A stretch of DNA of 64,000 bases, taken from positions 985,001-1,049,000 of the forward strand of contig CALSLW010000001.1 of the NCBI GenBank assembly GCA_943787295.1, written 5' to 3'. The position numbers and the translations under genes were made by a program. This document shows positions 8,219 through 41,287 of this stretch, one piece after another; position 1 is the stretch's first letter, and every line of letters begins with the position of its first letter. This stretch comes from an uncultured Flavobacteriaceae bacterium (GTDB lineage: Bacteria > Bacteroidota > Bacteroidia > Flavobacteriales > Flavobacteriaceae). The notes beneath the pieces are model-generated. The model was not told the origin of the DNA. It saw nothing but the letters and a program-made list of their open reading frames with translations, and ran no database searches.

Positions 8219-9910
8219 ATGGCCGGTTTGAGCGAGCAGGAAATTATTCGAAGAGAGAAATTAGCAAAATTAAGAGCATTAGGGATAGATCCCTATCCTG
8301 CCCCACTGTATCCGGTTGATCACACTTCAGCAGATATAAAAAATACTTTTGCCGAAGGCAAAAAAGTGGTCATCGCAGGTCGTTTAATGTCCCGCCGTAT
8401 TCAAGGTAAAGCCAGTTTTGCAGAATTACAAGACAGTAAAGGCCGTATTCAAGTTTATTTTAATAGAGATGAAATCTGTACAGGAGAAGACAAGACCCTT
8501 TATAATGAGGTCTATAAAAAACTCTTAGACATAGGGGATATTATAGGGATTGAAGGAACCTTATTTACCACTAAGGTCGGTGAGCAAACAGTGCAAGTGA
8601 CCAACTTTTCTGTTCTAAATAAAACCTTGCGTCCGTTACCTTTACCTAAAACAGATGCAGATGGAAATGTTTACGACGAATTTAACGATCCAGAATTGCG
8701 CTACCGTCAACGTTATGTTGATTTAATCGTTAATCCAAAGGTAAAAGACACCTTTATCAAGCGAACAAAAATCACCAATAGTATTCGTTCGTTCTTTAAC
8801 GAAAGAGAATACCTGGAAGTAGAGACACCTATTTTACAGCCTATTCCTGGAGGTGCTTCTGCCCGCCCATTTATAACCCACCACAACGCACTAGACATTC
8901 CTTTATACTTGCGTATTGCGAACGAGCTTTATCTAAAAAGATTGATTGTAGGAGGTTTTGATGGGGTGTATGAGTTTTCGAAAGACTTTAGAAACGAAGG
9001 GATGGACAGAACCCACAATCCAGAGTTTACCGTAATGGAACTCTATGTCGCTTATAAAGACTATTTCTGGATGATGGAAACCACTGAAGCCTTATTAGAA
9101 AAGGTCGCTATAGAATCGAATGGTTCTTCTGCGGTTACAGTGGGAGATAACACCATAGACTTTAAAGCACCTTATCCTCGTGTGCCGATTTTAGAAGCCA
9201 TTAAGATTCATACAGGAGTGGATGTGTCTGAGATGGGAGAAGAAGCATTACGCGCTACCGCAAAAGACCTAGGTTTGGAAGTAGACGAAACCATGGGCGT
9301 AGGGAAATTAATCGATGAAATATTTGGGGAGAAATGTGAGCATCACTATATCCAACCCACCTTTATTACCGATTATCCAAAAGAGATGAGTCCTTTAACA
9401 AAGGAACACCGGGACAACAAACGCCTAACAGAACGCTTTGAATTAATGGTGAATGGAAAAGAACTCGCCAATGCTTATTCTGAGTTAAATGACCCTATCG
9501 ATCAAAGAGAGCGTTTTGAAGATCAATTAAAATTGAGCGAAAAGGGAGACGATGAAGCCATGTTTATCGATCAAGACTTTTTGCGTTCGCTAGAATACGG
9601 AATGCCTCCTACCTCTGGAATTGGAATTGGAATCGACCGTTTGGTCATGTTAATGACCAACAATAGCTCAATTCAAGAAGTACTTTTCTTCCCGCAAATG
9701 CGACCAGAGAAAAAAGATGTTGAATTGACAGAGGAAGAAAAAATCATCCACGGTTTACTCAAAAAATCCAATCCTATTCTTCTAGCAACACTAAAAGAAC
9801 AAGCGGGATTAAGCAATAAAAAATGGGATGTTTCTTTGAAAGGCTTAAGCAAAAAAGGCCTTACTAAGGTCGAAAAGAACGAAGAAGGCCTTTGGGTTAA
9901 TCTAAATTAG
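8219..9910 (+). CDS. lysS: Lysyl-tRNA synthetase
   Basis: Class II aaRS motifs [20 protein letters not shown] and [17 protein letters not shown]-fold N-terminus. Confidence 0.97.
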
Positions 9911-10617
9911 AAGACTTTAAATTCTGTGCGGCGATTGGTCAAATGTTGTTGATCGCTACAACTCACACCATTGGTGCAGCTATTGAGTAGTTTGGTTTCA
10001 CCATAACCCACGCCAATTAATCTCGAGGAGTCCACTCCTTTAGAAATCAAGTATTCGACTACATTTTTAGCTCGATTTTCTGATAAGGTCAAATTGAATT
10101 GATCGCTTCCTTGAGCATCGGTATGCGAACCTATTTCTACAATGGCGTTTAAATCATTCTCTAATACTTTGAGGACATATCGGTCAATAATCCGTTTTGC
10201 GCTAGCATTAAGTGCTGCACTCCCCAGAGCATAGTGAATGGGTAAAACCTTCCCTCTTTCTGGGATGGTACAAGGGACTTCTCTCCAGGCGTTCATTCCT
10301 CCTTTTTTGACCAACACTTTTTTAGTTACGTCTTTATAGACGGCAGGGATTGAGATTTTTCTTGTGGTTTCATCTTTGACTAAAACGCGACGTTGTATCG
10401 TTTGGGTTTTGGCAGGGATGGCTTGTTCACGGGTTTGGGCTGGACGACTTTCAACTTGACGGGTAATGAGTTTATACCGCCCATCAATACGACGTGCTGT
10501 GGTGTTTGCTGCTGCCACCATTTTTTCAACTGGAATATCGCGTTCGATGGCGGGAATCTCTCTGTAGTGGAACACACGACAATCTGCAGGATTAATTGAG
10601 GGACAGGCAGGATTTCA
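9907..10617 (-). pseudogene. C-terminal part of an interrupted OmpA-family protein (partner fragment at 22657..23028)
   Basis: Reading frame continues upstream of the ORF-track start as NPACPSINPADCRVFHYREIPAIERDI..., ending in an OmpA_C domain (IVEIGSHTDAQGSDQFNLTLSENRAKNVVEYL...NRRTEFKVF); no start codon or signal peptide; TGA immediately upstream. Confidence 0.8.
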
Positions 10618-10697
10618 AAATCAAAGTTTTGAATTTTTATTAAAGGCTTTAAAAATCATTTATTAATTTCAAAGTCACATCTTTAAGGTAGAGAAAT

Positions 10698-11144
10698 ATG
10701 AAATTATATAGGACTATTAGTGGAGTTATTTTATTCTTTAGCAGCAGTGTTTTTGCGCAAGTGGCATTAGATTCTAAAGCTGAAAAAGCTCTTAGTGAAA
10801 TAATGAAAGCTCAAGAATTTTATTGGAACAAAGGGGATATTGAAGGCTTTATGGAAGGTTACTGGAACAATGCTGAACTCGTTTTTGTAGGTAAAAATGG
10901 ACCTACTTATGGTTATCAAAACACCCTGGAAAATTATAAAAAAGGCTATCCCGATAAAGCAAGTATGGGACAGTTGCATTTTGATATTCTGCACACCCAA
11001 CAATGGGATGAAAACACCATACAATTGATTGGGAAGTACACCCTCACAAGGGAAAATGATCAGCCCACGGGTTACTTCACCTTGCTATTTAGAAAAATTG
11101 ATTCAGTTTGGAAAATAGTGAGTGATCATTCCTCTTCTTCTTAA
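10698..11144 (+). CDS. Secreted SnoaL/DUF4440-like protein, copy 1
   Basis: 148 aa with signal peptide (MKLYRTISGVILFFSSSVFAQ); NTF2-like composition (FWNKGDIEGFMEGYWNNAELVFVGKNGPTYGYQNTLENYKKGYP); paralog at 40691..41137. Confidence 0.8.
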   Translation: MKLYRTISGVILFFSSSVFAQVALDSKAEKALSEIMKAQEFYWNKGDIEGFMEGYWNNAELVFVGKNGPTYGYQNTLENYKKGYPDKASMGQLHFDILHTQQWDENTIQLIGKYTLTRENDQPTGYFTLLFRKIDSVWKIVSDHSSSS

Positions 11145-11178
11145 GCCTTATTAATACAATAATTTCTAACAGACATAC

Positions 11179-11206
11179 GTTAATAATTTGTATACAAATT
11201 ATTAAC
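11179..11206. repeat. 28-bp perfect palindrome GTTAATAATTTGTATACAAATTATTAAC
   Basis: Direct reading; left half GTTAATAATTTGTA is the exact reverse complement of right half TACAAATTATTAAC. Confidence 0.95.
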
Positions 11207-11216
11207 TATAATTATC

Positions 11217-14200
11217 ATTAAAAGGAATTTTTATTTTCTGTTTTTTCTGTTCTTTGCGCAGATAATAAGCGCCCAATGTCCAGGACCGGTAGGCGATTGT
11301 GACGGCGACGAAGTCTTAGACTACCTTGACCTAGATGATAATAATAATGGGATTTTAGATACGGTCGAATGTCCTATTACTTTTATAGATTTTTCTGCCA
11401 TTTCAGGAGCAGGCTTAGCCCCTGGGGATACTCCTGTAGTTTTTGATAAATTTTTAAATGGAGATATTTTAACCACCTCAATTACCATAGATGCTCCAGT
11501 TCAAGTGGTCGGGACAGACGGATTGGTCTCTATTTCATCAAGGAATGGAGGGAGCTTGATACGTTTTCAAGATGACGCCCCAGCAAATGTGGGTGATTCA
11601 TTTACTACAACAATGACCCTTGGGTCAGCCACTAAAATTCGTTTTGGCGCAGATAGTAGTATTGGAGCTTCAAATATTACTACAGCCGATCAATTTCAAT
11701 TTGTCGCAGTGGGCGTACCTGCAGAATTTGAGTGGGTCGTTCTATCTTCTTCTAACGCAAATGTTCAAGCTTCGGGAAATTCTTTCACGGTGTCTGGAAC
11801 AGGAACGGGATCTACTTTTGCAGAGTTTGATGTTTATAGCAATCTGCCCATCACACAAATGAGGGTAAATTATCTCAATTTGACTACGGTTAGCCCAAAC
11901 ACTGGACAATTTGTTTTTTCTATGTGTAGTGATTCTGATTTAGATGGAGTAGTAGACGAACAAGATTTTGATTCAGACAATGATGGGTGTTCAGATGCTA
12001 ACGAAGCCTATGGCGATAGAAGCGCTGATGGGGGAGATAGTGGAATTTATGGTGTAGATACCCCCACACGAACCAATGGAGGGGTAAATGCTAATGGACT
12101 AGTCATCGCCGCTGGAGTAACGGCAAATGCCTATACTACAACTCCAATGTCATCTGTGGTTAGCTCCGCTTTATCAAGCTATCAAATGGCGACTACAGTT
12201 GCGGTAGATCCTAGTGCCTTGATCGATCAGACAGTTTTTGCAGGTACTAGCACTAACTTTACTATTTCTTCTGCATCTGCCTCAAGTACAGTAATTTTTA
12301 ATCCAGATGGAACACCCAACTATTCTTCTGGTTTTGACGCTAGTGCTGGATTTTTGTACCAATGGCAAGAAGATGGGTTCAATATTTCAAATGGAGGTAT
12401 TTATGCAGGGGCAACTAGTAGTGCTTTAACCATATCTGATGTGAATGGTTTAGATGGGAAAGTATATCGCTTATTAATAATACACCAAGATAATGTTTGT
12501 TTTTCAAGCCAAAATAGTGCTACGCTAACTGTGGTTGGTCCTTGTTCTCCTCAGCCAAGTGATCCAGGATTAAATGCTCAATGGATTGAAGCTGATTGCG
12601 ACAGTGATGGTCTTAATAATGGAGATGAAGTCACTGTAGGAACAGACCCTTATGTTTTTGAAGATAATGATGGAGACGGTATTGCAGACCACTTTGATCC
12701 AGATGATGATAACGATGGAATCTTAGATAGTATTGAATGTGGCTTTATCAATGGTGGCTTAGTCAACGGAGGTTTTGAAGACGGAATGAATGGCTGTAAC
12801 GGCATCTTTAATGAGAGTTTGATTGATGGTTGGGAAACCACTGCAACAGACGATATGATGGAAATTTGGTGTGATGGACGCGTGCTTTCAAGTATCACTT
12901 ATAACGCAAGAGAAGGTAATCGTTTTGCAGAGATAAATGCGAATCAAACCGCTGGACTTTTTCAAACCATCTCTACCACACCTGGGACTTATATGATATG
13001 GTCAGTAAGCCATTTTGCTAGAGGAACTGGTGTAGAAGAAATTCAAATACAAGCAGGGATTTCCATTACTACAAATGTAGTTTTAGAGACACAAACAGCG
13101 ACCAGAACAGCATGGCGTGATTATTCTGGGGTCTATTTTGTTCCGACTGGACAAGTTTCTACCGTATTCCTTTTTGAAGCCACCTCTGGGGGAACATCAG
13201 GGAATTTATTAGATCGAATTTCTTTTGATCGCCCCGCGAATGCGTGTACCCTTGATACAGACGGCGATGGGATACAAAACAGCTATGATTTAGATAGCGA
13301 TGGAGACACTATACCAGATGCGACTGAAACTGCCAGTGACACCGACGCAGACGGTATTTTTGACTTTTTAGACCTTGACTCAGATGGGGATGGGATTCCA
13401 GACCAAACAGAAGGTATCGTCGATACCGATGGAGATGGTTTGCCCAATTACCTCGATCTAGATTCAGATAGTGATACTATTTCAGATACCATTGAAGGGA
13501 TAGTTGATACCGATGGTGATGGAACTCCTAATTACTTAGATCTGGATTCTGATGAAGATGGATATAGCGATACTATAGAGGGAAGCGTAAATGACAGTGA
13601 TAGAGACGGAATTGTGGATTATATCGATCCAAGAGAGGCTGGCTACAGTGTGAGCCCTAACAGTCTGATTACAGTAAACGAATCTGGTACAGTAACCGCT
13701 TCTATCTTTGTAACACTTGATCGGAAACCTAGCACCAACGTGACCATTCTTGTTGCCAATGCTGATACAGCAGAAGTAGGTTTATCGACTACCACCCTTG
13801 TCTTTACCCCTACCAATTGGAATGTTACCCAAACCATTGTAGTGTCTGGGGTAGATGAAGCTGTTCGCGATGGAGATAAAACAATCAATATTACTTTTAG
13901 CATCGATGATCCAAATTCAGACGATTTATTTGACCCACTAAGTGATCAAGTAAGACAGGTGAGAAATCAAGACGATGATCCAGAGTCTTGCGATAGGAGA
14001 GATTTTATTACCGCTGAATTTATCGATAATAACGATTCTTCTTATTCCTCTGGAGGGGTCTATGTTGTTACAACTGATTCTGGAGCGGTAAACGGTTCTA
14101 TTTGGTATCAAAGAAAACTTGATTTAAGGGTTGAATTTACCATCGATGTAGATGTTTATTTAGGCGATAAAGATGCGTTAGGAGCAGATGGTTTAGCCTT

Positions 14201-17200
14201 TATCCTTCAAAACCTAGATACAGGACAAGGATCCACAGGAGGGGGACTGGGCTATGGTGGAGGCTCCCCCATTGATCCATCTTATGCCATTGAAATTGAT
14301 ACGTATAAAAATTCTCCTGACCCCACTAGTGGGGCAGACCATATCGGTTTTGTAGAAGATGGAAATACAGGGGCTAATCAAGAAGGGTCTGCAGATGTTG
14401 TTGAAATCAAAAATGTGGAAGACAATACCTGGCATAATTTTGTTATTCAATGGGCCCCCATGACAAATACACTTTCTTATGTTTTCACCCATAGCGATAG
14501 AACTGTATATAGTGATTCTAAAGTAATTGATTTACAGGCAGTAATTGGAGCAAATATTGCCTATTGGGGCTTTACTGCTTCAACAGGAGGGAAACAAAAT
14601 GAGCACGCTGTTCGATTTGATAATAATTCAATTTGTATGGCCGATGAGATTTTAATGCCAACTGCTTTGAATGAAGTTTCTGGGGTAACAACACAATCTA
14701 TCTGTGCGACAGGTTCACCAAAACTATTTGATTTAGCTATTAGCGGAAGTCGTCCTGCAGGGGTAAACCCAAGAACTGATATCAACAGTAATTCCTTTAA
14801 TTTGGTATGGTTTGATGCAGCTTCTGGGGGGAATTTCCTTCCAGATACAACAGATGTTGCTGATGGGGGAGTGTATTATGTAGAAGCGGCAAGTTTATCT
14901 GATCCTACCGCCTTGACATACAGAGAAAGTGAAAACAGATTGCAAGTAATTGTTGATTTGGTTTATGGAAGCTTTATCTCAACCAATACACTTGCCACAT
15001 TGACTGAGGGAAGTGATACGAGCACCTTCTCTATTGTATTAGAAGATCAACCCACAGGAAATGTAGTTTATGATCTAACTTCTACTGATACTGCTCAAAT
15101 GACAGTTTTCCCTGCATCAATCACCTTTACACCGTCTAATTGGAATGTAGTGCAAACAGGAACCATTACCACTGTGGATGACCTTATTGCAGATGGAGAC
15201 CAAAATGAAACCTTTAGAATAGCACTAGATGCTGCAGCTTCAGACGACTGTTATGCAATCACCCCAGTGAACTATGTCATGAGTATATTAGACGACGAAG
15301 TAGCTGGATTTGCTTTGAGTACAGTTTCGGGAACTTTGGCCGAAGGCAATAGCCAAACAGCACAAGTTAGTGTGGTGTTGACTGCTGCTCCTTTAACCAA
15401 TATTATCGTTGATTTACAAAGTCTAGATACTACAGAAGTTACCATTGCAACAGCCAGCTTGACCTTTACTCCTTCCAATTGGAATGTGGCTCAAACAGTA
15501 TCTTTAACCTCTGTGGACGAATTGTTAGTCGATGGAACACAAACCGTTTCTATAACCGCTTCTGTTAATGGAAGTTCTGATCCAGCCTTTACAGGCTTAG
15601 CCTCACAAACGGTGACGGTTAAAAATAATGATAATGATATCCCTGGCTTTACCCTTTCGAGTATAATAGGAAATTTAACTGAAGCAGCGACACAAACTGC
15701 TAGTTTGACAATAGTCTTAAATGCACGACCCATAAGTGATGTTATTTTAAGCATCACCACCTCGCCAACAGATGAAATATCACTGTCCACCACCAGTGTA
15801 ACCTTTACTAATGCTAACTGGAACGCGACCCAAACGCTAGTATTTAGTTCATTAGACGACTTTTTGATTGATGGAACAATTAATACTTCTGTTACTTTTA
15901 GTATCGACTCTACTTCAGACGCTTCCTATGTGAGCAGTGTTACTGCACAAACTATTGCAGTAGCGAACCAAGATAACGAAATTGCTGACTTTACAGTAAG
16001 TCCGCTTTATGGAGGAGATCTAGAAGAGGGAAATTCAAGTACGGTTAGCTTTACCGTAGTTCTTGACGCACGCCCCAATCCGTCAGAATTTGTTATCATA
16101 GACATTACCACATTAGATCCCACAGAATCTCAAGTTAATACTACAACTAGCTCGCTTGTTTTTGATGATACCAATTGGAATGTTACCCAAACAGTCTCTT
16201 TGACCAGTGTAGAAGATATCATTTTAGACGGTACAGTAAGTAGTACGATAAGTATTGCTGTAAATACAGCATCGCCTGCTACAGCTTTTAACAGTCTTGC
16301 TTCTCAAACCCTAACCGTAGCCACATTAGATAACGATATTGCTGGCTTTAGTTTATCTCCAATATTAGGGAGCTTAACAGAAGGTGCAACCCCTACCATC
16401 ACCTATGGAGTAAGTTTGAATGTCCAGTCACTAACTGCAGTAACAATTGATTTTAGTTCAAGTGATACAGGAGAAGTAATTGTAGCAAATACCTCAGCTT
16501 ATTTGTTTAATCCGCTAAGCTGGAATACAACACAAACGATTACCTTACAAGCAATCGATGATTTCTTAATCGACGGGAGTCAAACCGTGAGTATTACGGC
16601 AATGATTAATCCAAGTTCTGATGCTGGATTTTTAGCCGTAGCTTCACAGACCATCTCAGTAACAAATGCAGACAACGATGTTGCAAGTATTACTTTGACC
16701 CCGATAGATAATCTCTCTAGTGAAGCAGGGGACACGGCAAGTTTTTCTGTTCAATTAACTGCCATTCCTACAGTAGATGTAAGTTTTGAATTGCGTTCGA
16801 CTAATCCTGCAGAGGCCCTCCCACAGCAAAGTATTGTGCAGTTTAACCCAGCGAATTGGAACATTCCTCAACTTATCTTAGTCGATGGAATTAATGACAG
16901 CCCTCCTTTTTCTGATGGAAGCCAAACCGTAACCATTGTGACAGAAAATGTTAGTTCTACCGATGTCAACTTTGGGGCTATTGCCTCAGTCGAGATAGAA
17001 GACTTTGTCGTCATGAATCAAGACGATGATGCTCCAGGAATAGTGATTAGTGCAATCGATAATAATTTTACTGCGACAGAATCTGGCGGAACCATAACCT
17101 TAACATTCGAGTTACTCTCGCAACCCACTGCAGATGTAACGATACCCCTCTCTCTTTCTGGAGAAACAGACGAGCTTTTGCTCTCCATTTCTAGTATAAC

Positions 17201-18860
17201 AATCTCTCCGGCGAATTGGGATCAGCCTCAATTGAACCAAGTTGTTTTGACTGGGGTAGACGACAATATAATCGATGGGAGAAGAAATGTTCTTTTAATT
17301 ACGGGCAATCCCACTAGTACAGATCTGCCCTATAATGGTATGACAGCATCGAATATTGCAGATGTCGCTTTGTATAACAATGACAATGACAATGCAGGTT
17401 TAACAATTAATGCTCCTTCTCCAGTATCAGAAAATGCTTCTACTAGTCTTATGACGGTTTCCTTACAAACAAGTATTGCAGCCACAACGACGATTTTAAT
17501 AAGCTTATCTGACACGACCGAACTAAGTGTTTCACCCACACAACTGTTGTTTACACCTTCAAATTGGAATACCCCTCAAGTGTTACAGATCAAAGGAGTA
17601 GACGACAATTTGATCGATGGAGATATATGGTCTAACGTTTTCCTAACAGTGGATGCGACCAGTTGTGATAGTTTTTACTGTAGCTTAACAGCAGAAGTTA
17701 TTAATGTATTGAATTTAGATAATGATGCCGATAGCGATGGGGATGGGATATTTGATCAAGTAGATAATTGTCCTTTAATCCCAAATGAAGATCAACTTGA
17801 TTTTGACGGGGATGGGATAGGAGATCTTTGCGACACAGATCGCGACGGTGATGGTGTGGAAAATGATCAAGAGCTTAGCGATAACACAAATCCAGAGGAT
17901 CCTTGTAGCTATCTATTCCAAAGTATCACCCTTCCCCCCTTAGAGTTAGGAGATTGTGATAATGATCAAGTCCCCAATACACTCGATTTAGATGATGATA
18001 ATGACGGTATTTTAGACAGCGATGAAGGATTTGTCGATACCGATTTTGATGGAATCCCAGATCTTCTTGATTTAGATGCAGATGGAGACAATTGCTTTGA
18101 TGTTATTGAGGCTGGAGGAGAAGATACCGACCAAGACGGAATTTTAGGGAGCAGTCCAGTAAATGTCGATGCGCAAGGTAGAGTTGTGGGAGAAGGAGGC
18201 TATCAAAACCCTAATGATGAAAATGCCAACGGAATTTTTGATTTCCAAGAAATAACGGCCCCATTAGCATGGCAGCTTCAGCCTGTTGAGCGAATCAGTT
18301 TCGCGCCAACTATGCAAGTGTCTGCCTCTGTAAATTCTCCTTCTATTACAGCTTATCAATGGCAAGAAAATAATGGAACACGGGCCTTACCCCTGTGGGA
18401 GGACGTGATGGATAATACAGTAATTCAAGGAAGTAACACCCGTCAATTGCAGTGGAATAACCCTGATCCTTCTTATGCAGGAAAACAATATCGCTTAACG
18501 GTAGAAAATCTTGCCTTTATCTGTCAGCCAATTTTAATTTCAGGTATCGTTACCCTTGGTTCTGCACAAATAATTATTCCCAATGGTTTTTCTCCCGACG
18601 GTGATGGGGTAAATGATACATGGGAAATACAAGGGTTAAATGGATCAATTGCTTATCGATTAAGTGTCTTTAATCGATGGGAAACTAAAGTATATGAAAC
18701 GACCCAGTACAACAATGACTGGGAGGGAACCTCTAATGTGTCTTCCTTTATTTCTAGTGGGAATAACCTTCCAGAAGGGACTTATTTCTACCTGTTAGAA
18801 TTTAATGATGGACAACCGCCTTTAACAGGATTCGTCTATATAAAACGCAGAACAAACTAA
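11217..18860 (+). CDS. Giant cell-surface adhesin: TSP type-3-like Ca-binding repeats, L-type lectin-like domain, Calx-beta-like repeats, T9SS type-B C-terminal sorting domain
   Basis: ORF track 11505..18860 begins at an internal GTG; the open frame extends upstream through IKRNFYFLFFLFFAQIISAQCPGPVGDCDGDEVLDYLDLDDNNNG (signal peptide); about nine NWN..Q......DD...DG repeats; C-terminus IIIPNGFSPDGDGVNDTWEI...GTYFYLLEF...GFVYIKR; exact start uncertain. Confidence 0.85.
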   Translation: MKRNFYFLFFLFFAQIISAQCPGPVGDCDGDEVLDYLDLDDNNNGILDTVECPITFIDFSAISGAGLAPGDTPVVFDKFLNGDILTTSITIDAPVQVVGTDGLVSISSRNGGSLIRFQDDAPANVGDSFTTTMTLGSATKIRFGADSSIGASNITTADQFQFVAVGVPAEFEWVVLSSSNANVQASGNSFTVSGTGTGSTFAEFDVYSNLPITQMRVNYLNLTTVSPNTGQFVFSMCSDSDLDGVVDEQDFDSDNDGCSDANEAYGDRSADGGDSGIYGVDTPTRTNGGVNANGLVIAAGVTANAYTTTPMSSVVSSALSSYQMATTVAVDPSALIDQTVFAGTSTNFTISSASASSTVIFNPDGTPNYSSGFDASAGFLYQWQEDGFNISNGGIYAGATSSALTISDVNGLDGKVYRLLIIHQDNVCFSSQNSATLTVVGPCSPQPSDPGLNAQWIEADCDSDGLNNGDEVTVGTDPYVFEDNDGDGIADHFDPDDDNDGILDSIECGFINGGLVNGGFEDGMNGCNGIFNESLIDGWETTATDDMMEIWCDGRVLSSITYNAREGNRFAEINANQTAGLFQTISTTPGTYMIWSVSHFARGTGVEEIQIQAGISITTNVVLETQTATRTAWRDYSGVYFVPTGQVSTVFLFEATSGGTSGNLLDRISFDRPANACTLDTDGDGIQNSYDLDSDGDTIPDATETASDTDADGIFDFLDLDSDGDGIPDQTEGIVDTDGDGLPNYLDLDSDSDTISDTIEGIVDTDGDGTPNYLDLDSDEDGYSDTIEGSVNDSDRDGIVDYIDPREAGYSVSPNSLITVNESGTVTASIFVTLDRKPSTNVTILVANADTAEVGLSTTTLVFTPTNWNVTQTIVVSGVDEAVRDGDKTINITFSIDDPNSDDLFDPLSDQVRQVRNQDDDPESCDRRDFITAEFIDNNDSSYSSGGVYVVTTDSGAVNGSIWYQRKLDLRVEFTIDVDVYLGDKDALGADGLAFILQNLDTGQGSTGGGLGYGGGSPIDPSYAIEIDTYKNSPDPTSGADHIGFVEDGNTGANQEGSADVVEIKNVEDNTWHNFVIQWAPMTNTLSYVFTHSDRTVYSDSKVIDLQAVIGANIAYWGFTASTGGKQNEHAVRFDNNSICMADEILMPTALNEVSGVTTQSICATGSPKLFDLAISGSRPAGVNPRTDINSNSFNLVWFDAASGGNFLPDTTDVADGGVYYVEAASLSDPTALTYRESENRLQVIVDLVYGSFISTNTLATLTEGSDTSTFSIVLEDQPTGNVVYDLTSTDTAQMTVFPASITFTPSNWNVVQTGTITTVDDLIADGDQNETFRIALDAAASDDCYAITPVNYVMSILDDEVAGFALSTVSGTLAEGNSQTAQVSVVLTAAPLTNIIVDLQSLDTTEVTIATASLTFTPSNWNVAQTVSLTSVDELLVDGTQTVSITASVNGSSDPAFTGLASQTVTVKNNDNDIPGFTLSSIIGNLTEAATQTASLTIVLNARPISDVILSITTSPTDEISLSTTSVTFTNANWNATQTLVFSSLDDFLIDGTINTSVTFSIDSTSDASYVSSVTAQTIAVANQDNEIADFTVSPLYGGDLEEGNSSTVSFTVVLDARPNPSEFVIIDITTLDPTESQVNTTTSSLVFDDTNWNVTQTVSLTSVEDIILDGTVSSTISIAVNTASPATAFNSLASQTLTVATLDNDIAGFSLSPILGSLTEGATPTITYGVSLNVQSLTAVTIDFSSSDTGEVIVANTSAYLFNPLSWNTTQTITLQAIDDFLIDGSQTVSITAMINPSSDAGFLAVASQTISVTNADNDVASITLTPIDNLSSEAGDTASFSVQLTAIPTVDVSFELRSTNPAEALPQQSIVQFNPANWNIPQLILVDGINDSPPFSDGSQTVTIVTENVSSTDVNFGAIASVEIEDFVVMNQDDDAPGIVISAIDNNFTATESGGTITLTFELLSQPTADVTIPLSLSGETDELLLSISSITISPANWDQPQLNQVVLTGVDDNIIDGRRNVLLITGNPTSTDLPYNGMTASNIADVALYNNDNDNAGLTINAPSPVSENASTSLMTVSLQTSIAATTTILISLSDTTELSVSPTQLLFTPSNWNTPQVLQIKGVDDNLIDGDIWSNVFLTVDATSCDSFYCSLTAEVINVLNLDNDADSDGDGIFDQVDNCPLIPNEDQLDFDGDGIGDLCDTDRDGDGVENDQELSDNTNPEDPCSYLFQSITLPPLELGDCDNDQVPNTLDLDDDNDGILDSDEGFVDTDFDGIPDLLDLDADGDNCFDVIEAGGEDTDQDGILGSSPVNVDAQGRVVGEGGYQNPNDENANGIFDFQEITAPLAWQLQPVERISFAPTMQVSASVNSPSITAYQWQENNGTRALPLWEDVMDNTVIQGSNTRQLQWNNPDPSYAGKQYRLTVENLAFICQPILISGIVTLGSAQIIIPNGFSPDGDGVNDTWEIQGLNGSIAYRLSVFNRWETKVYETTQYNNDWEGTSNVSSFISSGNNLPEGTYFYLLEFNDGQPPLTGFVYIKRRTN
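13252..13635 (+). other. Thrombospondin type-3-like DxDxDG calcium-binding repeat tract (N-terminal)
   Basis: DTDGDGIQNSYDLDSDGDTIPDATETASDTDADGIFDFLDLDSDGDGIPD... ; a second tract lies near 17731..18200. Confidence 0.85.
13990..14634 (+). other. L-type (legume-like) lectin domain within the adhesin
   Basis: DVYLGDKDALGADGLAFILQN...GGGLGYGGGSPIDPSYAIEIDTYKN...DHIGFVEDG...NTWHNFVIQW...YWGFTASTGG. Confidence 0.75.
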
Positions 18861-19789
18861 TGAAGAAGCTATTTTTATTTTTATTCTTGAGTAGTTTGAC
18901 CTGGATGGTCAGTGGACAACAAGAGTCCAGCTTTAGTCATTATATGTACAATCATCAAGCCATTAATCCAGGCTATGTGGGCGCACGTGGAGTAGCGAAT
19001 TTTACCTCAGTTTTACGCTCTCAATGGACTGGGATAGAAGGTGCACCCTTAACCCAAACCTTATCCTATAGCGGCCCTGTATCAACTAAAAATATAGGTT
19101 TTGGTTTAAGTGTTATTAACGATAAGATTGGGCCAATAAGTAATACTTCATTTAATATAGATTTAGCATATCATTTGCGTTTAAACCGAAATGATCATCG
19201 ACTTGCAGTAGGACTTAAAGCGGGAGTGTTGAATTATGTTTTAAATCCAGACATGATCAATACTTTTACCCCAAATGATCAAGCATTTATTCTGGATCAA
19301 GACAGGAAATTATTACCCAATGTGGGTTTTGGATTTTACTATTATACTCCAAAATTTTATTTAGGCGCGGCCATTCCTCAAATGATCGCCCATGAGGCCT
19401 ATCAACTTGAAAGGCACTTTTATTTGATCAGTGGGGGTTTAATCGAGTTTTCAGAGAATTTCATGTTGAAACCCAGTATGCTTTTAAAACAAACCAAGAG
19501 TGTTGCAGGCTATGATTTATCTGTGATGGCGATATTCAATCAAACTTTTTGGATAGGGGGGCAAATAAGGAATAATTTTAATGAAGATACCTTTCGTTCT
19601 TTTGCTGGAACTGGAACAAGTGCCCTTCTAGGAATCCATTTAGGGAAAAACTTCAGTTTGGGGTACTCTTATGGTTTTCCCTCTTCGATCATTAATAATG
19701 GGTTAAATGCAACGACTCACGAAGTCTTTTTGCGCTTCGACTTAACAACAAAATCTCAGACTATCTTACGTTCACCTAGATTCTTTTAA
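18860..19789 (+). CDS. PorP/SprF family type IX secretion system membrane protein
   Basis: QQESSFSHYMYNHQAINPGYVGARG...SVLRSQWTGIEGAPLTQTLSYSGP; GFGLSVINDKIGP; overlaps the adhesin stop by 1 nt. Confidence 0.95.
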   Translation: MKKLFLFLFLSSLTWMVSGQQESSFSHYMYNHQAINPGYVGARGVANFTSVLRSQWTGIEGAPLTQTLSYSGPVSTKNIGFGLSVINDKIGPISNTSFNIDLAYHLRLNRNDHRLAVGLKAGVLNYVLNPDMINTFTPNDQAFILDQDRKLLPNVGFGFYYYTPKFYLGAAIPQMIAHEAYQLERHFYLISGGLIEFSENFMLKPSMLLKQTKSVAGYDLSVMAIFNQTFWIGGQIRNNFNEDTFRSFAGTGTSALLGIHLGKNFSLGYSYGFPSSIINNGLNATTHEVFLRFDLTTKSQTILRSPRFF

Positions 19790-19791
19790 GC

Positions 19792-21957
19792 ATGAAACAG
19801 TTCTTCTTTTTTATGGTATTATTTTTCTTTGCTTCTAACAGTCTTATAGGGCAAAAAACGACCTCAAATCAAGAAGAAGATACTTGGGGAGATTATTATT
19901 TCATCAATGGTGAATATGAAAAAGCAATCAACTTTTTTGAAAACACCCAAAAGGAATTAAGATTAGAACAACAACGCAACCTTGCACAAGCTTATTTAGC
20001 CACCCGACAAGAAGTTAAAGCAAAAGTGACTTACGGCCCAGTAGCTAATTCAGAGGAGGCAAGCGTGCAAGATTATTATCGTTATGCTGATTTATTAATG
20101 GAAGAACAGCGTCTCGCAGATGAATACAGAACAAAAGCCTATAAACTTCCATGGTCAACTCCTGCTTTGTTCGATCAAGATAGTTTGTTATACAAACAAC
20201 GATTTGGGGCATCAATTTACACTATTAGTGGTGTAAAGGGAAACAGCGCAAACAACGAATTTGGGTTAATCTTTATGGATAAAAACCCTAACGGGAGCGT
20301 ATTTTATTTAAGTGATCAAGAAAAAACCAAAGAGCAAAAACGCGCTTTAAGGCGGGTCAAATCTGATTTACCTATTTATAATTTCTATCAAGCAACCTAT
20401 ACGACCAGTCCTTCTTCACTGCTTCCAGGCCCACCTTTACCCAACACCTTAAATACTTTTTTTCAAGAAGGGCCAGGGACCTATGATGCCAGCAGTGATC
20501 GTTTCTATTTTACCCGCTCTGATAGCAAATATGATAAGAAGAAAAAGGTGCATCTTAACATTTATTTTATCAAAAAGACAGAGATTAATCAAAGTAAAAT
20601 CGCCCTTCCGCTTCCTTTTAATAGGCAAGGTTATTCCACTTTACATCCTGCCATTTCTCCTAATGGAAAACGTTTGTTCTTTGCTAGCGACCGTCCAGAG
20701 GGCTTTGGGGGTATGGATTTATATTATGTTGATATTGAAAATGGACGTTTTTCTGACCCCATTAACCTTGGTCCAGATATTAATACAGAAGGAGATGAGG
20801 TTTTTCCCTATGCCTTTAGTGAAACACAGCTATTCTTTTCGTCTAATGGTCGAGAAGGAATAGGGAAGTTAGACGTGTTTTTAACTGAACATGTGATTGA
20901 AAAGCGTTGGGAAACTTTTATTTTAGGGAAAGACTTCAACACAAAAGAAGATGATTTTTCTTTTGGAATAGGAGAAGACCTTGAAATAGGATATTTTGCC
21001 TCTGATCGCGAAGGTGGAAAAGGAGCAGACGATTTATATACGTTCCCATTTATGCCAGAAATTACTGGTATAACAGATCATTATATCTATGTTCCATCAG
21101 ATACTTTAATTGTGGCGAATAGAGGGGTTTTAAACAATGATATCAAAATGCTTCAGGATAAAGACCCCTTACAACGGCTTTTACAAAAAGAAGCCATCCC
21201 TACTATCCCACCTCAAAACGGATCGATTTTTCTCAATAGAAATGGCTCTTTCCTATATAAAAATAATCAACCAATAGCCCAAAAAGATTCTTTTGCCTAT
21301 CGCCTAAAAACAGTAAAAGGTTATTCTGATAATATATGGGTACAATTAGAAAGAGTGGCGGTAGATTCTGGTGAACTCAATCAAGAACTTGCAGCGACTT
21401 TTGCTTCTATTTTTTACAATCTAGATAAAAGTAATATTTTAGAACAGTACCTCGATCGAGTAGACAAAGTGGTTGAGGTATTACAAAAAAATCCTAGCCT
21501 TGAAATTGAAGTAAGTTCTTATACAGATTGTCGTGGAAGTGCCTCCTATAATTTGGCTTTATCTCAGCGAAGAACACAAGCAATAATAGATTATGTGCAA
21601 GCACGCATTGAAAAGCCAGAACGTATTTATGGAAAAGGATATGGTGAAGAAGAAGTAAATAGTGCTGGGGGAAAAGATTATCAACTAGTGGCCGGTTCTT
21701 ATAATGAGCAAGAGAATACAGGCCGTTTAATCGCATTGCTTAAAGCATCTGGAATTCAAGCAAGAAAAATTTCGCAAGGTGCACTAACAAGAGTGATCGT
21801 TGCAGAGTCAGATCGTTTTGAAAGCCTTCAAACAGTTCAAGAACAACTCACCCAACAATCCATCAAAACTTGGATAACAAAAAGTCCTTGTTTTCAATTA
21901 AGTGAAGAGGAACATCAGGCCAATAGAAGAACAGACTTTAAAGTTATTAGACTTTAA
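19792..21957 (+). CDS. OmpA family protein with TPR-like N-terminus, WD40-like PD40 repeats and a SPOR domain inside the OmpA_C domain
   Basis: HPAISPNGKRLFFASDRPEGFGGMDLYYV (PD40); FYNLDKSNI...VVEVLQKNPSLEIEVSSYTDCRGSASYNLALSQRRTQAIIDYV (OmpA_C); YQLVAGSYNEQENTGRLIALLKASGIQARKI...LTRVIV (SPOR-like). Confidence 0.9.
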   Translation: MKQFFFFMVLFFFASNSLIGQKTTSNQEEDTWGDYYFINGEYEKAINFFENTQKELRLEQQRNLAQAYLATRQEVKAKVTYGPVANSEEASVQDYYRYADLLMEEQRLADEYRTKAYKLPWSTPALFDQDSLLYKQRFGASIYTISGVKGNSANNEFGLIFMDKNPNGSVFYLSDQEKTKEQKRALRRVKSDLPIYNFYQATYTTSPSSLLPGPPLPNTLNTFFQEGPGTYDASSDRFYFTRSDSKYDKKKKVHLNIYFIKKTEINQSKIALPLPFNRQGYSTLHPAISPNGKRLFFASDRPEGFGGMDLYYVDIENGRFSDPINLGPDINTEGDEVFPYAFSETQLFFSSNGREGIGKLDVFLTEHVIEKRWETFILGKDFNTKEDDFSFGIGEDLEIGYFASDREGGKGADDLYTFPFMPEITGITDHYIYVPSDTLIVANRGVLNNDIKMLQDKDPLQRLLQKEAIPTIPPQNGSIFLNRNGSFLYKNNQPIAQKDSFAYRLKTVKGYSDNIWVQLERVAVDSGELNQELAATFASIFYNLDKSNILEQYLDRVDKVVEVLQKNPSLEIEVSSYTDCRGSASYNLALSQRRTQAIIDYVQARIEKPERIYGKGYGEEEVNSAGGKDYQLVAGSYNEQENTGRLIALLKASGIQARKISQGALTRVIVAESDRFESLQTVQEQLTQQSIKTWITKSPCFQLSEEEHQANRRTDFKVIRL

Positions 21958-22666
21958 AATTGCCATTGAAGACTAGCGTAAATTTCTCTTGTGGGAGCGG
22001 CTTCAAAATACCGATTCCCGAAGGCATTAATGCGAATATTATCGCTGTATAGTGTGTTGAATAGGTTAGTACAACCCATTATTAAGGATGTTTTTTGCCC
22101 TATTTTTTTAGTGGAAGTCGAAGACTTACGTCGTCTCTAAAAAATTGATCTACTTGGTGTTCATTGCTATTATCTGCGAAAAGGTCCCCACGATAGGTTT
22201 TAGTATAATTGACTTGAAATTTATTTTCCCAGTGATAAGAAAGGTAAAGTATCCCAAAATCTGAGGGGAGACCAGGAAGGTTATTTCCACTATAATTTTC
22301 ACCATTTTGTTCAAAGTCTTGATACTTAAAGTTGGCATAGTTGTAGGTGATTTGAGCTTGAAATCTTTTGTTGAATTGATGTTTTATCAAAAATTCCACC
22401 CCTTTTCTAGTTGTACTTCCGGCGTTTTGATAAAATGTCCTTCCAGGTGAGTCGGCTAATTCATAAGCGACTAGATCATTGCTTGTGGTAATAGAAAAGT
22501 AAACTAAGCTAGCGTTTGTTTTTCTGCTCGTGTAATGAATTCCGCCCTCGAGATTATCGGCTACTTGAATATCAACAAAAGGATTGAAGCCGCCACTGCC
22601 AGTTGGGTTAGCACTTAATTCACTCAAGGTTGGGGTTTCATAGCTGCGGGATAAATTTACAAAACC
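21954..22666 (-). pseudogene. C-terminal remnant of a TonB-dependent receptor, frameshifted
   Basis: SYETPTLSELSANPTGSGGFNPFVDIQVADNLEGGIHYT... parallels the full-length receptor at 38416..40443; frame breaks at an A7 run (PLKK* / IGQKTSLIMGCTNLFNTLYSDNIRINAFGNRYFEAAPTREIYASLQWQF). Confidence 0.85.
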
Positions 22667-23028
22667 TCAACCCTTTCATAGTCTGTTGAGAAAGAGGCTG
22701 GAATCACTTTAAGTTGATGATAAGGATCTTTAATCCACAGCGTATCTGTAATGGTCTCATACTGCGCTGGCTCATAAATAAACCGTTTAGAAGCAGGTCG
22801 AATTACAACATCTTGATATTCGTTCTTATATTCTGCTGGAACAACTTCAAGTTGATCATAGGCTGGTCGAAGCAGCACACGCACAGTTTCGTCTTTGTAC
22901 TCATCTGGTACAATACACTTTGCATAACATTTGTTAGGCTCAGGATTTTCAGGTAATTCGGCTAAATACTCTTGCGCACAAATGGATGTGGCACATAGCA
23001 TAGCAATAAAAAAGTAGCTTTTTTTCAT
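22657..23028 (-). pseudogene. N-terminal part of an interrupted OmpA-family protein (partner fragment at 9907..10617)
   Basis: Signal peptide MKKSYFFIAMLCATSICAQ then CYAKCIVPDEYKDETVRVLLRPAYDQLEVVPAEYK... repeats typical of Bacteroidetes OmpA-family N-termini; truncated at RVEVL* with no OmpA_C domain. Confidence 0.8.
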
Positions 23029-35565: not shown

Positions 35566-35576
35566 CTAAAACAAAA

Positions 35577-35614
35577 AAACGGTTATACTTTATAAAGTAT
35601 AACCGTTTTTTTTA
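35577..35614 (+). terminator. Rho-independent terminator downstream of tRNA-fMet
   Basis: AAACGGTTATACTTTATAAAGTATAACCGTTTTTTTT. Confidence 0.9.
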
Positions 35615-35660: not shown

Positions 35661-36521
35661 TTACTCAGTACAAGAACTCACATCAATTTCGCTGTATAAA
35701 TTTGGGTCGTGGTTTGGGTCTTCGACCGTATTAGCCATCATTGAAATTTTAACAATTTCGTCACTTGTAGAAAAACAAAGTTGATGAAAGTTGTCGTTAT
35801 CATTTATATCTACTATGGAAATAGGTACATGCGGTATTAGATCTCCAGAACAGTAAGAATAGCCAACATAGTACTGAAATAAGTCAGATTCAGTATCACC
35901 ACCTATAAACGGTGTGATACCACCATTCCAAGCAACTTGAACCGTTTGTGTTCCCGAATTACATTCATTCAGATTGCCATCAATTCTTTGGGCAAAGAAT
36001 AAACTTGGTCCATCAGCAAGCGGAATAACATTTGTGGTAGTGATTCCGTTTAAGTTTATGATTGCTGAACATACGGACTCTCCAGATAAAGTATCAGTTG
36101 TAAATAAATCCCCTACAACTCTAACTTCAACAGGTGGATTAATAACAGCGGTACCGAATTCACCTAAGAGAAGTACAGTTCGATTTTCTCCATTTTCATC
36201 TGCGGGGGCCATAGAAACACAAATAGGGGTATGTATATTTCCTAGGCTATCTATAACTTCAAAATCAGTTTCCGATAAACTGGATGCATCTAATGGGAAT
36301 TTAAAATTAACAGGCATACCATCTAACAGGCCTGCTTGTTGATTACATAAAAATAGACTTGGTAGTGCATTATCAAGTCCAAAAAAAGCCGACACAAGAG
36401 TATCTTGTATTTCTTCTGAAGCATATTCTCCTGTGCAATCATTAGTGACCTGTTCTTGAGGGTCTTCTTTTTTGTTACACGAAAACATGACACAGGCTAA
36501 TGGTAAATAAATCATTTTCAT
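35661..36521 (-). CDS. Hypothetical lipoprotein with signal peptide overlapping the truncated hchA-like gene
   Basis: Likely start MKMIYLPLACVMFSCNKKEDPQEQ; the signal region overlaps 36475..37044 in a different frame. Confidence 0.55.
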   Translation of the reverse strand: MKMIYLPLACVMFSCNKKEDPQEQVTNDCTGEYASEEIQDTLVSAFFGLDNALPSLFLCNQQAGLLDGMPVNFKFPLDASSLSETDFEVIDSLGNIHTPICVSMAPADENGENRTVLLLGEFGTAVINPPVEVRVVGDLFTTDTLSGESVCSAIINLNGITTTNVIPLADGPSLFFAQRIDGNLNECNSGTQTVQVAWNGGITPFIGGDTESDLFQYYVGYSYCSGDLIPHVPISIVDINDNDNFHQLCFSTSDEIVKISMMANTVEDPNHDPNLYSEIDVSSCTE

Positions 36522-37044
36522 GAGCAAATCTAAGTATTTTTCCAACATTTTCATCCGTAGGCATGTCAATCATTGCACCATGACCACCTGGAACGAAAAC
36601 AGCTGAATAAGAATCTGTATGTTCTCTTGAGGTGTTAATGAAGTCTGAAAGTTTAATTGGTTTTTCAAAGTTTGATTTGAGTTCTTTGTAAATGGCTTTA
36701 ACGTATTCGTCTTTTTTTGGGAAAGCCCACATTTCAAATACCACAGGCTTCCCAGTTGGAGTAGCAATTACAAATTCGAATCCTGCATTTTTCAAATGGA
36801 GCATAGGTAATAATGCTTCGACAGGGTGATTCCCTGTAGAAAAATATTTTCCATTTTCCATTTTCAGATTCTTTTTGTCTGTGAAAATTACCAAGATCTT
36901 TGACTTCTTCCCTCCATATTTTTTATAGGTGACATTTTCAAAATCTGTTTTGTCAGATACTCCCATTTTTAGTGCCATTTTGGATGGACTGTATGAGCCG
37001 TCTGATTCCAATTTTGGTGCAAAACCCAATATTTTTTTTAGCAT
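36475..37044 (-). pseudogene. Truncated Hsp31/HchA-like (DJ-1/PfpI superfamily) protein
   Basis: NHPVEALLPMLHLKNAGFEFVIATPTGKPVVFEMWAFPKKDEYVK...VFVPGGHGAMIDMP...FAHENDLFTISLCH, then VFV*; C-terminal part after the nucleophile Cys-His is missing. Confidence 0.85.
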
Positions 37045-37117
37045 AACTTTTTGTATTTATTTAAACATCAAAATTAGCCATGTGATTTTAGATTAAAATT
37101 ACCCTATGGTAATAAAT

Positions 37118-37687
37118 CTAGTTGTTTTTCATCCGAATTCTGCTCAAACTTTGTTGAGTTATACCAAGATAAGAGGCAATATGATAGTTGGGAACGTGTT
37201 GTTCTATATTAGGGTATTTCTCAATGAATAGATTATACCTTTCTTGGGCTGTTAACTGCAATTGATTTAAAATCCTTTTGTGCAAGCTAGCGATATGTTT
37301 TTCTAAGTTTTTTCTTTGAAACGGTTCGAATTCTGGAAATTGAGTGTATATATTATTAAGCTTAAGAGCATTGAATTCTATAACAACCGAATTAGTTATA
37401 GATTCAACTGTAAGTGAAGCTGGCTCATCATTGTAAATTGCCATAAAATCACTAATCCACCAATCTATGGTTGCAAATTGCAATGTATGCTCCTTACCTT
37501 CTTAGTCAATACAAAACGAACGAAGACTTCCATTGATAACAAAAAAAGTCTTTTTCACAGCTTGACCTTGTCGAATTAAAATTTCTCCTTTAGATACCTT
37601 TTTCTCTTTAGCTATAGAAAAGATATATTCCTCGGCTTCAGAGGAGAGATTAATTGAACTTCTAATTTTATTGATCAAGAACCGCAT
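37118..37687 (-). pseudogene. Crp/Fnr family transcriptional regulator with in-frame stop
   Basis: N-terminal part IFSIAKEKKVSKGEILIRQGQAVKKTFFVINGSLRSFCID, then TAA (37502-37504), then in the same frame EGKEHTLQFATIDWWISDF...HIASYLGITQQSLSRIR. Confidence 0.88.
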
Positions 37688-38415: not shown

Positions 38416-40443
38416 ATGAAAAGAATCCTATTATTACTCCTGTTTTGTGGTCAATATAGCTGGGCACAAATCGATAGCTTAGCGGTGATTCAATTAGAAG
38501 AAGTTGAGTTAAAATCCATTCAACTAACAACACCAATCGAACAATTTCCAGCGGCTATTTACAAGAAAGAAATTTCAGCCTTATGGCAGGGATCACAAAG
38601 TTCACTACAAGAATACATAGAAGATTTACCCGGTTTAATAAGTTTTAATCGATCTAACTATGCGCAAGATTTACGTATCTCTATACGTGGTTTTGGGTCA
38701 CGAGCAGCCTTTGGCATTAGGGGCATCAAATTAATTGTTGACGGGATTCCAGAAACCACTCCAGACGGGCAGGGGCAATTAGACAATCTCCCTTTAGGGA
38801 TTTTATCCTCTATTGAAATACTAAGAGGTCCTAGTGCCGTGCGCTATGGCAATGCAGCTGGTGGAGTGCTCGCAATTAACACCCTCGAGGGGGTAGAGGA
38901 AGATTTTCATCAAATTGGACTTAGAATAGGGAGTTATGGCGCACAACAAGCACAATACACTGCTGGTTTAAAAAAAGATAAAACAACGGCTATTTTCCAC
39001 CTTAATCATGCTAAAGCAAAAGGCTATCGTGATAATAGCCAATTTGAAAACAATATGTTTAATGCGAAAGTTAGGCATCACTTCTCTCCTACTCTCCATG
39101 CAATGCTTCAATTTAATGCGACAAAGAGTCCCTATGCACAAGATGCTGGAGGGCAAACAATTGAAGAATTCAACAACAACAGACGCAGTGCAAGAGATCG
39201 CAACCTACAATACAAAACTGGAGAAAAAATAGCGCATTATAAAAGCGGAGCAACCATTTCTTATCAAAAAGGAAAGATCGAAGGCGCGCTGTATGGCTTT
39301 ATCGCCAAACGCAACTTTGAAGGAAAACTCCCCTTTGCTAATGGTGGATGGGTTGATTTAAACAGAAGAAATACTGGTCAAGGTGGTAGTTTTAGTTTTT
39401 CTAACAAAGAGCAAAAGTTAGGCTTTAAAACACAATTGAGCTATGATATTGCTACTCAGAGAGATCTTAGGAAACGTTTTGTCAATAGTGAGGGCGTAAA
39501 AGGGGAATTAACCTTAGATCAAAAAGAAAGCTTTAATAGCTTTGGCGTAGCCTTAATACAACATTTAACCTATGGACCCATGGTATTTAATGGGGGGCTT
39601 CGATGGGATGCAAATGAACTAAAGGTAGACGATTACTTTCTTAATGATGGGAACGATACAGCAGCTAGAACCTTAAATGCATGGAGCCCCCAAGCGGGAA
39701 TAACCTATACTTTTTTTCCAGGTTTATCTGGTTTTGGAAATCTTTCTAAAAGCTATGAAACCCCTACTTTAAGTGAATTAAGCGCCAACCCAAATGGCAA
39801 CGGTGGATTCAATCCTTTGATTGATATTCAAGTGGCCGAGAATCTTGAATGGGGTGTTCACTTTACAGCAAAAAAAACAAAAGGTAGTCTAGTCTATTTT
39901 AATATTAATACAACAAATGACTTAGTGGCTTATGAACTCGCCGATTCTCCGGGAAGGACTTTTTATCAAAATGCTGGAAGCACCAAAAGAGAAGGTATTG
40001 AACTCTTACTACAACACCAATTTAGTCAAAGATTGAGCGCTAATCTCACCTATAATTCCGCAAGTTTTACCTATAAAAATTTTGAGCAAAACGGAGAGAA
40101 TTACGCTGGAAATAGACTCCCTGGAATCCCTAAAAACTTTGGCGTTTTACGCCTTACTTATCAATGGAAAAATGGTCCATTGATCAATTATTCAAAGACC
40201 TATAGAAGTGACTTATATGCTGACAACAACAACGCAACTCGTGTTGATTCATTTTACAGAGATGATATAAACCTTAGTATTCCTTTGAATAAAATCAATG
40301 ATAAAACAGCCGTTTTTTTAGGTTGCAACAATCTGTTTAACAGCTTATATAGTGACAATATTCGCATTAACGCCTTTGGGGGGCGTTATTATGAAGCCGC
40401 TCCAGAACGAGAAATTTATGTAAACTTACAATGGCAATTCTAG
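38416..40443 (+). CDS. TonB-dependent receptor (full length)
   Basis: Signal peptide MKRILLLLLFCGQYSWAQ; plug motifs DLRISIRGFGSRAAFGIRGIKLIVDGIPETTPDGQGQLDNLPLG...IEILRGPSAVRYGNAAGGVLAI; C-terminal ...INLQWQF-type end. Confidence 0.95.
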   Translation: MKRILLLLLFCGQYSWAQIDSLAVIQLEEVELKSIQLTTPIEQFPAAIYKKEISALWQGSQSSLQEYIEDLPGLISFNRSNYAQDLRISIRGFGSRAAFGIRGIKLIVDGIPETTPDGQGQLDNLPLGILSSIEILRGPSAVRYGNAAGGVLAINTLEGVEEDFHQIGLRIGSYGAQQAQYTAGLKKDKTTAIFHLNHAKAKGYRDNSQFENNMFNAKVRHHFSPTLHAMLQFNATKSPYAQDAGGQTIEEFNNNRRSARDRNLQYKTGEKIAHYKSGATISYQKGKIEGALYGFIAKRNFEGKLPFANGGWVDLNRRNTGQGGSFSFSNKEQKLGFKTQLSYDIATQRDLRKRFVNSEGVKGELTLDQKESFNSFGVALIQHLTYGPMVFNGGLRWDANELKVDDYFLNDGNDTAARTLNAWSPQAGITYTFFPGLSGFGNLSKSYETPTLSELSANPNGNGGFNPLIDIQVAENLEWGVHFTAKKTKGSLVYFNINTTNDLVAYELADSPGRTFYQNAGSTKREGIELLLQHQFSQRLSANLTYNSASFTYKNFEQNGENYAGNRLPGIPKNFGVLRLTYQWKNGPLINYSKTYRSDLYADNNNATRVDSFYRDDINLSIPLNKINDKTAVFLGCNNLFNSLYSDNIRINAFGGRYYEAAPEREIYVNLQWQF

Positions 40444-40690
40444 AGTTGGATTTTTTTGCATCACCTCAACCACTTTATTTACTCGATCTAGGTATTCTGA
40501 AAGAAAATCGCTTTTATCTAGATTGTAGAAAATAGAGGCAAATGCCTCTGAAAGTTCTTCATTAAGTTCATCTGGATCAACCGCTGCACGCTCTAATCGT
40601 ACCCAAATATTATCAAAATAACCTTTCACTGTTTTTAAACGATAGGCAAAAGAATCTTTTTCGATCAATGGCTGATTATTTTTATAACAA
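40443..40690 (-). pseudogene. Internal fragment of an OmpA/PD40-family protein, paralogous to 21253..21505
   Basis: YKNNQPLIEKDSFAYRLKTVKGYFDNIWVRLERAAVDPDELNEELSEAFASIFYNLDKSDFLSEYLDRVNKVVEVMQKNPTLEL vs YKNNQPIAQKDSFAYRLKTVKGYSDNIWVQLERVAVDSGELNQELAATFASIFYNLDKSNILEQYLDRVDKVVEVLQKNPSLEI. Confidence 0.9.
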
Positions 40691-41137
40691 CTAAGAGGAA
40701 GAAGAATGATCACTTACAATTTTCCAGACTGAATTGATCTTTCTAAACAGAAGTGTAAAATAGCCTGTAGGTTGATCTTTTTCTCTTTTAAGGGTATATT
40801 TCCCAATTAATTGAATGGTGTTTTCGTCCCACTGTTGGGTATGTAAAATATCAAAATGCAACTGCCCCATGCTATCTTTATCTGGATAGCCTTTTTTGTA
40901 ATTTTCCAAGGTATTATGATAACCAAAGGTAGGACCGCTTTTCCCAACAAAAACTAAGGCAGGACTATTCCAATATCCTTTCATAAAGCTGTCGATATCC
41001 CCTTTATTCCAAAAATCTTCTTGGGCTTTCATTGTTTGTTGGATTGCTTTCTCTGCAATAGCATCAACCTTATATTGCGCTTTTATACTTCCGCTTAGAA
41101 GCAAAAAAATAGACAAATAAAAATATTTCTTTCTCAT
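40691..41137 (-). CDS. Secreted SnoaL/DUF4440-like protein, copy 2
   Basis: 148 aa, 79 of the last 86 residues identical to 10698..11144 by hand alignment; signal peptide MRKKYFYLSIFLLLSGSIKAQ. Confidence 0.82.
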   Translation of the reverse strand: MRKKYFYLSIFLLLSGSIKAQYKVDAIAEKAIQQTMKAQEDFWNKGDIDSFMKGYWNSPALVFVGKSGPTFGYHNTLENYKKGYPDKDSMGQLHFDILHTQQWDENTIQLIGKYTLKREKDQPTGYFTLLFRKINSVWKIVSDHSSSS

Positions 41138-41287
41138 AGAACTTGCTTAACCGTTAGATAATCAAATTAAAGAATGTTGTTGAATCACTAGTACAAATTA
41201 CTAAAACTTTGATTTTAAAGCAGATTCTGGAGTAGATGGCTGAAAAATTTTTATATTTAGATACTATATCTTGAAAACCTAACAAAA

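Follow-up and report, generated by a model that had tools for sequence, protein, structure and literature searches.

The window analysed here, a stretch of 64,000 nucleotides from an uncultured Flavobacteriaceae bacterium, contains two regions that carry the same genes in the same order, about 18 kb apart and in opposite orientation, and it raises the question whether one is a copy of the other or whether the two came to lie in one genome by separate routes. We refer to them as locus 1 (10.7-22.7 kb) and locus 2 (38416-41137), to the genome of the window as G000, to its sister genome as G010 and to the other genomes compared by labels of the same kind. The common gene order had been pointed out in a first-pass annotation, and blastn over the whole window bears it out: aligned with each other, 10.5-22.7 kb and 38.4-41.3 kb give exactly three matches with low E-values, all of them inverted and collinear. 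These are a DUF4440/SnoaL segment (40692-41037 versus 10798-11143, 80.9% nucleotide identity, E 9e-90), an OmpA segment (40448-40686 versus 21256-21494, 81.6%, E 2e-61) and a TonB segment (39730-40446 versus 21951-22666, 71.0%, E 3e-90). Searches of the genome found the SnoaL gene and, at the DNA level, the OmpA gene at these two loci only, and the TonB gene at both loci, with nothing beyond them except distant receptors at ~30%. Both loci lie inside a single 1.1-Mb contig.

On the minus strand, locus 2 reads DUF4440/SnoaL, OmpA scrap and a convergent TonB gene, and it is made up of the following parts:

38416..40443, plus strand: intact TonB-dependent receptor gene, a 675-aa ORF from ATG with plug and beta-barrel domains over the Pfam cut-off, found at the corresponding place in G013 and G011
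40443..40450, no strand: deletion junction B (approximate), with AATTG common to both deletion ends in comparison with locus 1 OmpA at 21490-21510 and 21945-21965
40448..40686, minus strand: PorE-like OmpA scrap, 81.6% identical to 21256-21494, 80 codons without a stop
40680..40691, no strand: deletion junction A (approximate), the two deletion ends lying in similar, A/T-rich sequence
40691..41137, minus strand: intact DUF4440 (SnoaL-like) gene, DUF4440 E 1.8e-7 (over the cut-off), in the orthologous place in relatives

The gene labelled SnoaL-like passes the Pfam cut-off for DUF4440 and falls under that for SnoaL_3. At junction A the 3' flank of this gene is joined to OmpA, with the adhesin, PorP and the 5' part of OmpA gone, and the SnoaL stop, CTCTTAG, runs directly into the scrap as TTGTTATAAAAATAATCAG. 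At junction B the OmpA gene is joined to its own end at AATTG (OmpA side GAAATTGAAG, OmpA/TonB end AAAATTGCCATTG). The first-pass annotation had quoted these junction sequences as they read in the DNA and had proposed two internal deletions, which gain support from the full cassette found at the same spot in relatives (see below); its view that locus 2 keeps TonB and only a remnant of OmpA also stands, the span of the remnant being corrected to 239 bp, roughly residues 489-568 out of the 721 in the OmpA protein. With the adhesin and PorP absent and OmpA reduced to this scrap, the type B cassette is no longer encoded at locus 2. Since the frame of the scrap is still open and, compared with locus 1, amino-acid changes are few relative to silent ones (pN 0.12, pS 0.44), the collapse was probably recent compared with the divergence of the two copies. 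Beside locus 2, a cNMP-binding regulator apparently falls into two frames (37502-37687 and 37118-37483), and at 36475 a DJ-1/PfpI-like gene is maybe shortened (region 36475-37687), both with sub-cut-off Pfam matches; these adjoining genes are possibly decaying. A perfect 40-bp palindrome at 35573-35612 is perhaps a terminator.

The relatives show where the cassette belongs. Its native order there is DUF4440, adhesin, PorP, OmpA and a convergent TonB gene, beside an ABC-F gene and gldLMN, and the same neighbourhood adjoins locus 2 in the window (41.3-50.2 kb). G013 has the complete cassette at this site; G003, G015 and G017 have both cassette ends with contig breaks between them, while in G006 the sequence covers the DUF4440/adhesin end and in G008 the adhesin-to-TonB end. 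Because the cassette of the relatives occupies the same gldLMN spot, locus 2, judged by its position, is the ancestral native site at which the cassette was lost, and not the second copy for which it had first been taken. Such losses are seen elsewhere too. In G011, DUF4440 and TonB stand directly end to end at the native site, and G010 has its own deletion there, between DUF4440 and OmpA, with breakpoints that differ from those of G000; an adhesin and a PorP copy were sought in G010 and not found. Loss or absence of the cassette thus recurs in the genus, as far as one genome per species, several of them fragmented, samples it; G010 itself is in 110 contigs, with its native locus at a contig end. 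The TonB receptor gene by the cassette of G015 holds a run of undetermined residues (L061, G015:C106, 4361-6040). The genus is probably Candidatus Arcticimaribacter, a member of the NS5 marine group (PMC9122927), in whose detailed description (PMC9122927) the main text does not mention adhesins, horizontal transfer or the type IX secretion system (T9SS).

Locus 1 presents a full cassette in the middle of another gene:

9907..10613, minus strand: OmpA-family gene, 3' part, split by the insert; OmpA E 1e-16, gene as it now stands at 9907-10575, in G010 joined without a break to the N-terminal part
10614..22662, plus strand: insert of 12,049 bp with the full cassette, inside the OmpA-family gene; homology with G010 breaks off at 10613 and is taken up again at 22663, the target having lost 37 bp
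10614..11043, plus strand: left end of the insert, near-identical to the G010 native locus, 2 differences in 430 bp
10698..11144, plus strand: DUF4440 (SnoaL-like) gene, 99.3% aa identity to the G010 native gene
11238..18860, plus strand: adhesin with L-type lectin and CHU_C secretion domains (Pfam), start codon uncertain; ORF 11505-18860, whose frame stays open further upstream but offers no ATG, GTG or TTG there
18860..19789, plus strand: PorP/SprF-like gene, PorP_SprF E 1e-61
19792..21957, plus strand: PorE-like OmpA gene with PD40, OmpA and SPOR domains (Pfam)
21951..22662, minus strand: 3' portion of a gene for a TonB receptor, truncated at the insert edge and bearing a frame lesion (blastn; G010 comparison)
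22663..23028, minus strand: OmpA-family gene, 5' part, split by the insert; gene as it now stands at 22657-23028, in G010 joined without a break to the C-terminal part

The split OmpA-family gene is whole in G010, between the same lysS and hemL neighbours, and is uninterrupted in G001 as well; among the genomes compared, only G000 has a cassette copy between lysS and hemL. By this comparison locus 1 is the more recent of the two and sits as an insertion in the OmpA-family gene. The insert edges fall at 10613/10614 and 22662/22663, where 37 bp of the target are replaced. At the right edge the target and a locus-2-type TonB gene have GGTT in common, and at the left edge at most one base is shared. 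No target-site duplication or terminal repeats were seen at the joins, and no transposase or integrase among the ORFs of the insert. The TonB piece reaches as far as the right edge; since it ends where the insert ends, the remainder of the gene most likely never came in with it. The first-pass annotation had read the TonB scrap of locus 1 and the OmpA scrap of locus 2 as reciprocal losses, a symmetry that dissolves once the former is the end of a transferred fragment and decay is confined to locus 2.

Some details of the cassette concern the adhesin start. In the frame at locus 1 (11180-11260) there is no ATG, GTG or TTG ahead of a signal-peptide-like start, which leaves ATT, ATC or ATA as possible start codons; by reading, the start looks likewise in G015 (L060), which has a TTG further in, and in G006 (L065), and an ATG is present in G013. 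A perfect 28-bp palindrome lies between DUF4440 and the adhesin (11179-11206), with a similar hairpin at the same place in G015.

The source of locus 1 can be approached through its left end. The 430 bp from 10614 to 11043, 84 non-coding bases included, differ from the native locus of G010 at only 2 positions (99.5%), whereas in the flanks of the two loci identity to G010 is 79-81%, and the best other 430-bp window within them reaches 89.5% (median ~81%). In the SnoaL tree, locus 1 groups with G010 and locus 2 lies outside. Between the two loci, pS (synonymous differences per site) is 0.72 (95% interval 0.60-0.86) for SnoaL and 0.74 (0.62-0.86) for TonB, against 0.56-0.69 for G000-G010 orthologues, intervals that overlap this yardstick, so that the two genes are to be read as not younger than the species split rather than as older than it. 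Only the OmpA segment is less diverged than host and sister, with a pS of 0.44 (0.29-0.58). One copy being far nearer to another species than its background is, and the site of that copy being empty in relatives, the two copies are most readily accounted for as xenologues rather than paralogues. It had been argued at the outset that segments of unrelated age, or segments scattered singly across the genome, would imply independent origins: the ages are indeed unequal, no single age fitting all pieces when the OmpA scrap segment looks younger than SnoaL and TonB, and no single segments are scattered over the genome.

A duplication within the genome, in which one locus was copied from the other and different parts were then lost from each, would account naturally for the shared gene order, the opposite orientation and the distance of 18 kb, for the TonB pieces of the two loci being each other's nearest relatives among the sampled genomes and for the low pS of the OmpA segment. 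A duplicate younger than the split from G010 is expected to be less diverged, and an older one to leave the G010 target gene interrupted. Since SnoaL and TonB do not fall below the G000-G010 range and the target gene in G010 is nevertheless whole, and since the left end of locus 1, down to its non-coding bases, matches the G010 native locus and not locus 2, we regard duplication as very unlikely, and with it the notion of two copies of one cassette with complementary losses, against which divergence and the empty G010 site both speak.

The confinement of near-identity to the first 430 bp, with the OmpA gene of the insert only 90% identical to that of G010, invites a variant in which an old paralogue at locus 1 had its left end overwritten by DNA of a G010-like strain, or in which G010 received these 430 bp from locus 1. 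Near-identity starts exactly at the insert edge, however, where the stop of an overwriting tract would be a coincidence, and an old paralogue should have left an interrupted target gene in G010; we hold this variant for highly improbable. Least credible, with a very low probability, is that an error of assembly or binning in G000 or G010 mimics a transfer. The fragmentation of G010 and the position of its native locus at a contig end would allow such an error, yet locus 1 and locus 2 share one contig in G000, and beyond the near-identical tract G010 carries on with the sequence of its native site rather than with the lysS-hemL target, which would not be expected of a stray G000 read.

We therefore return to deletion and transfer, and consider it very probable, from the comparison of these genomes, that the native cassette collapsed at locus 2 and that a 12-kb piece was transferred separately, from a G010-like sister lineage, into the OmpA-family gene. 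On this reading the ancestral place of the cassette, with its DUF4440 gene, type IX-secreted lectin-type adhesin, PorP-like anchor, PorE-like OmpA and convergent TonB gene, would be locus 2, and two deletions between short similar sequences would have collapsed it while sparing DUF4440 and TonB at its ends. In a separate event, 12 kb of the homologous locus would have entered from a sister lineage near G010 and been joined, with little or no homology, into the unrelated OmpA-family gene to give locus 1; such a piece would have ended inside TonB, which would account for the TonB scrap there. As the insert beyond its left end is less close to G010 (OmpA at 90%; adhesin and PorP missing there), the actual donor would be an unsampled lineage. 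Entry may have been as free DNA by transformation, with which the presence of a ComEC-type competence gene in the G000 genome and the failure of a search of that genome to find Ku fit. GGTT at the right edge, at most one base at the left and the lack of a target duplication point to end-joining of a linear fragment at both edges. A close PorP of the cassette kind is found in G000 at locus 1 only (next best <=36%), and locus 1 may now cover for the lost native cassette, performing its task.

The younger OmpA segment suggests a further layer. Between locus 1 and G015, pS is 0.43 for both PorP and OmpA, while it is 0.69 for SnoaL, 0.82 for TonB and 0.68-0.79 for core genes at the native site; in the PorP and OmpA trees G015 pairs with locus 1, whereas its partner in the core tree is G017. 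The OmpA scrap left at locus 2 likewise belongs to the G015 type (80% aa identity). As the inner genes are near G015 and the bookends and core are not, the inner block was probably swapped between lineages with the bookends staying, a reading that draws on few genomes; the unequal pS of OmpA against SnoaL and TonB is what would be expected if inner genes were exchanged. More tentatively, and with the balance tipped somewhat against it, the native site could be an exchange slot, in which the DUF4440 and TonB bookends stay fixed and the adhesin-PorP-PorE block is repeatedly swapped from species to species by recombination or dropped, adhesin turnover outpaces that of the neighbours and a lost block can be regained at a new site; on the same tentative footing, the block would have been dropped at locus 2 of G000, in G010 and perhaps in G011. 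G012 has two adhesin-PorP-OmpA cassettes, L148 (G012:C3) and L149 (G012:C6), one grouping with G018 and the other with G009, and may also hold a transferred copy.

A deletion and a horizontal gene transfer make an event of an ordinary kind, and here an empty site and a near-donor document it well. It presents a surface-adhesin cassette that decayed at home and is present again elsewhere through transfer from a sister species, and it illustrates that two collinear copies in one genome are not necessarily duplicates. If the exchange-slot reading is true, the site would be useful for measuring adhesin turnover in abundant marine flavobacteria, a turnover possibly driven by phage or surface colonisation. 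As to mode of entry, locus 1 resembles the illegitimate (microhomology) integration of foreign DNA in general, to judge from an insert whose ORFs include no transposase, the missing target duplication, the 37-bp target deletion and GGTT at one edge.

The cassette itself matches the type B scheme of T9SS, from which secretion and surface anchoring are predicted. In that scheme an adhesin with a type B C-terminal domain (CTD) is held by a PorP-like protein, and cell-wall anchoring is proposed where a PorE-like gene is adjacent (PMC9143113). Similarly, the giant adhesin of locus 1 ends in a CHU_C domain (E 8e-25, residues 2445-2535, at locus 1 only) and is followed by the PorP/SprF-like gene and a PorE-like gene with PD40 and OmpA domains over the cut-off, the TPR part of PorE being undetected by Pfam, and gldLMN lies near the native site. 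In contrast to the scheme, DUF4440 stands in front and a convergent TonB gene behind; the L-type lectin domain of the adhesin suggests glycan binding. At the level of the chromosome, the native site recalls the replacement flexible genomic islands of aquatic bacteria, in which inner genes are exchanged and edges keep an older history (PMC4033161). In both, surface-structure genes occupy a fixed chromosomal site and inner genes pass, in the present case probably, between lineages, and here too, between locus 1 and G015, the inner genes are younger in their shared history than the bookends. Unlike in those islands, the inner genes are not unrelated clusters but alleles of a single cassette, and in G000 the transferred copy did not take the place of the old one but lies at a new site.
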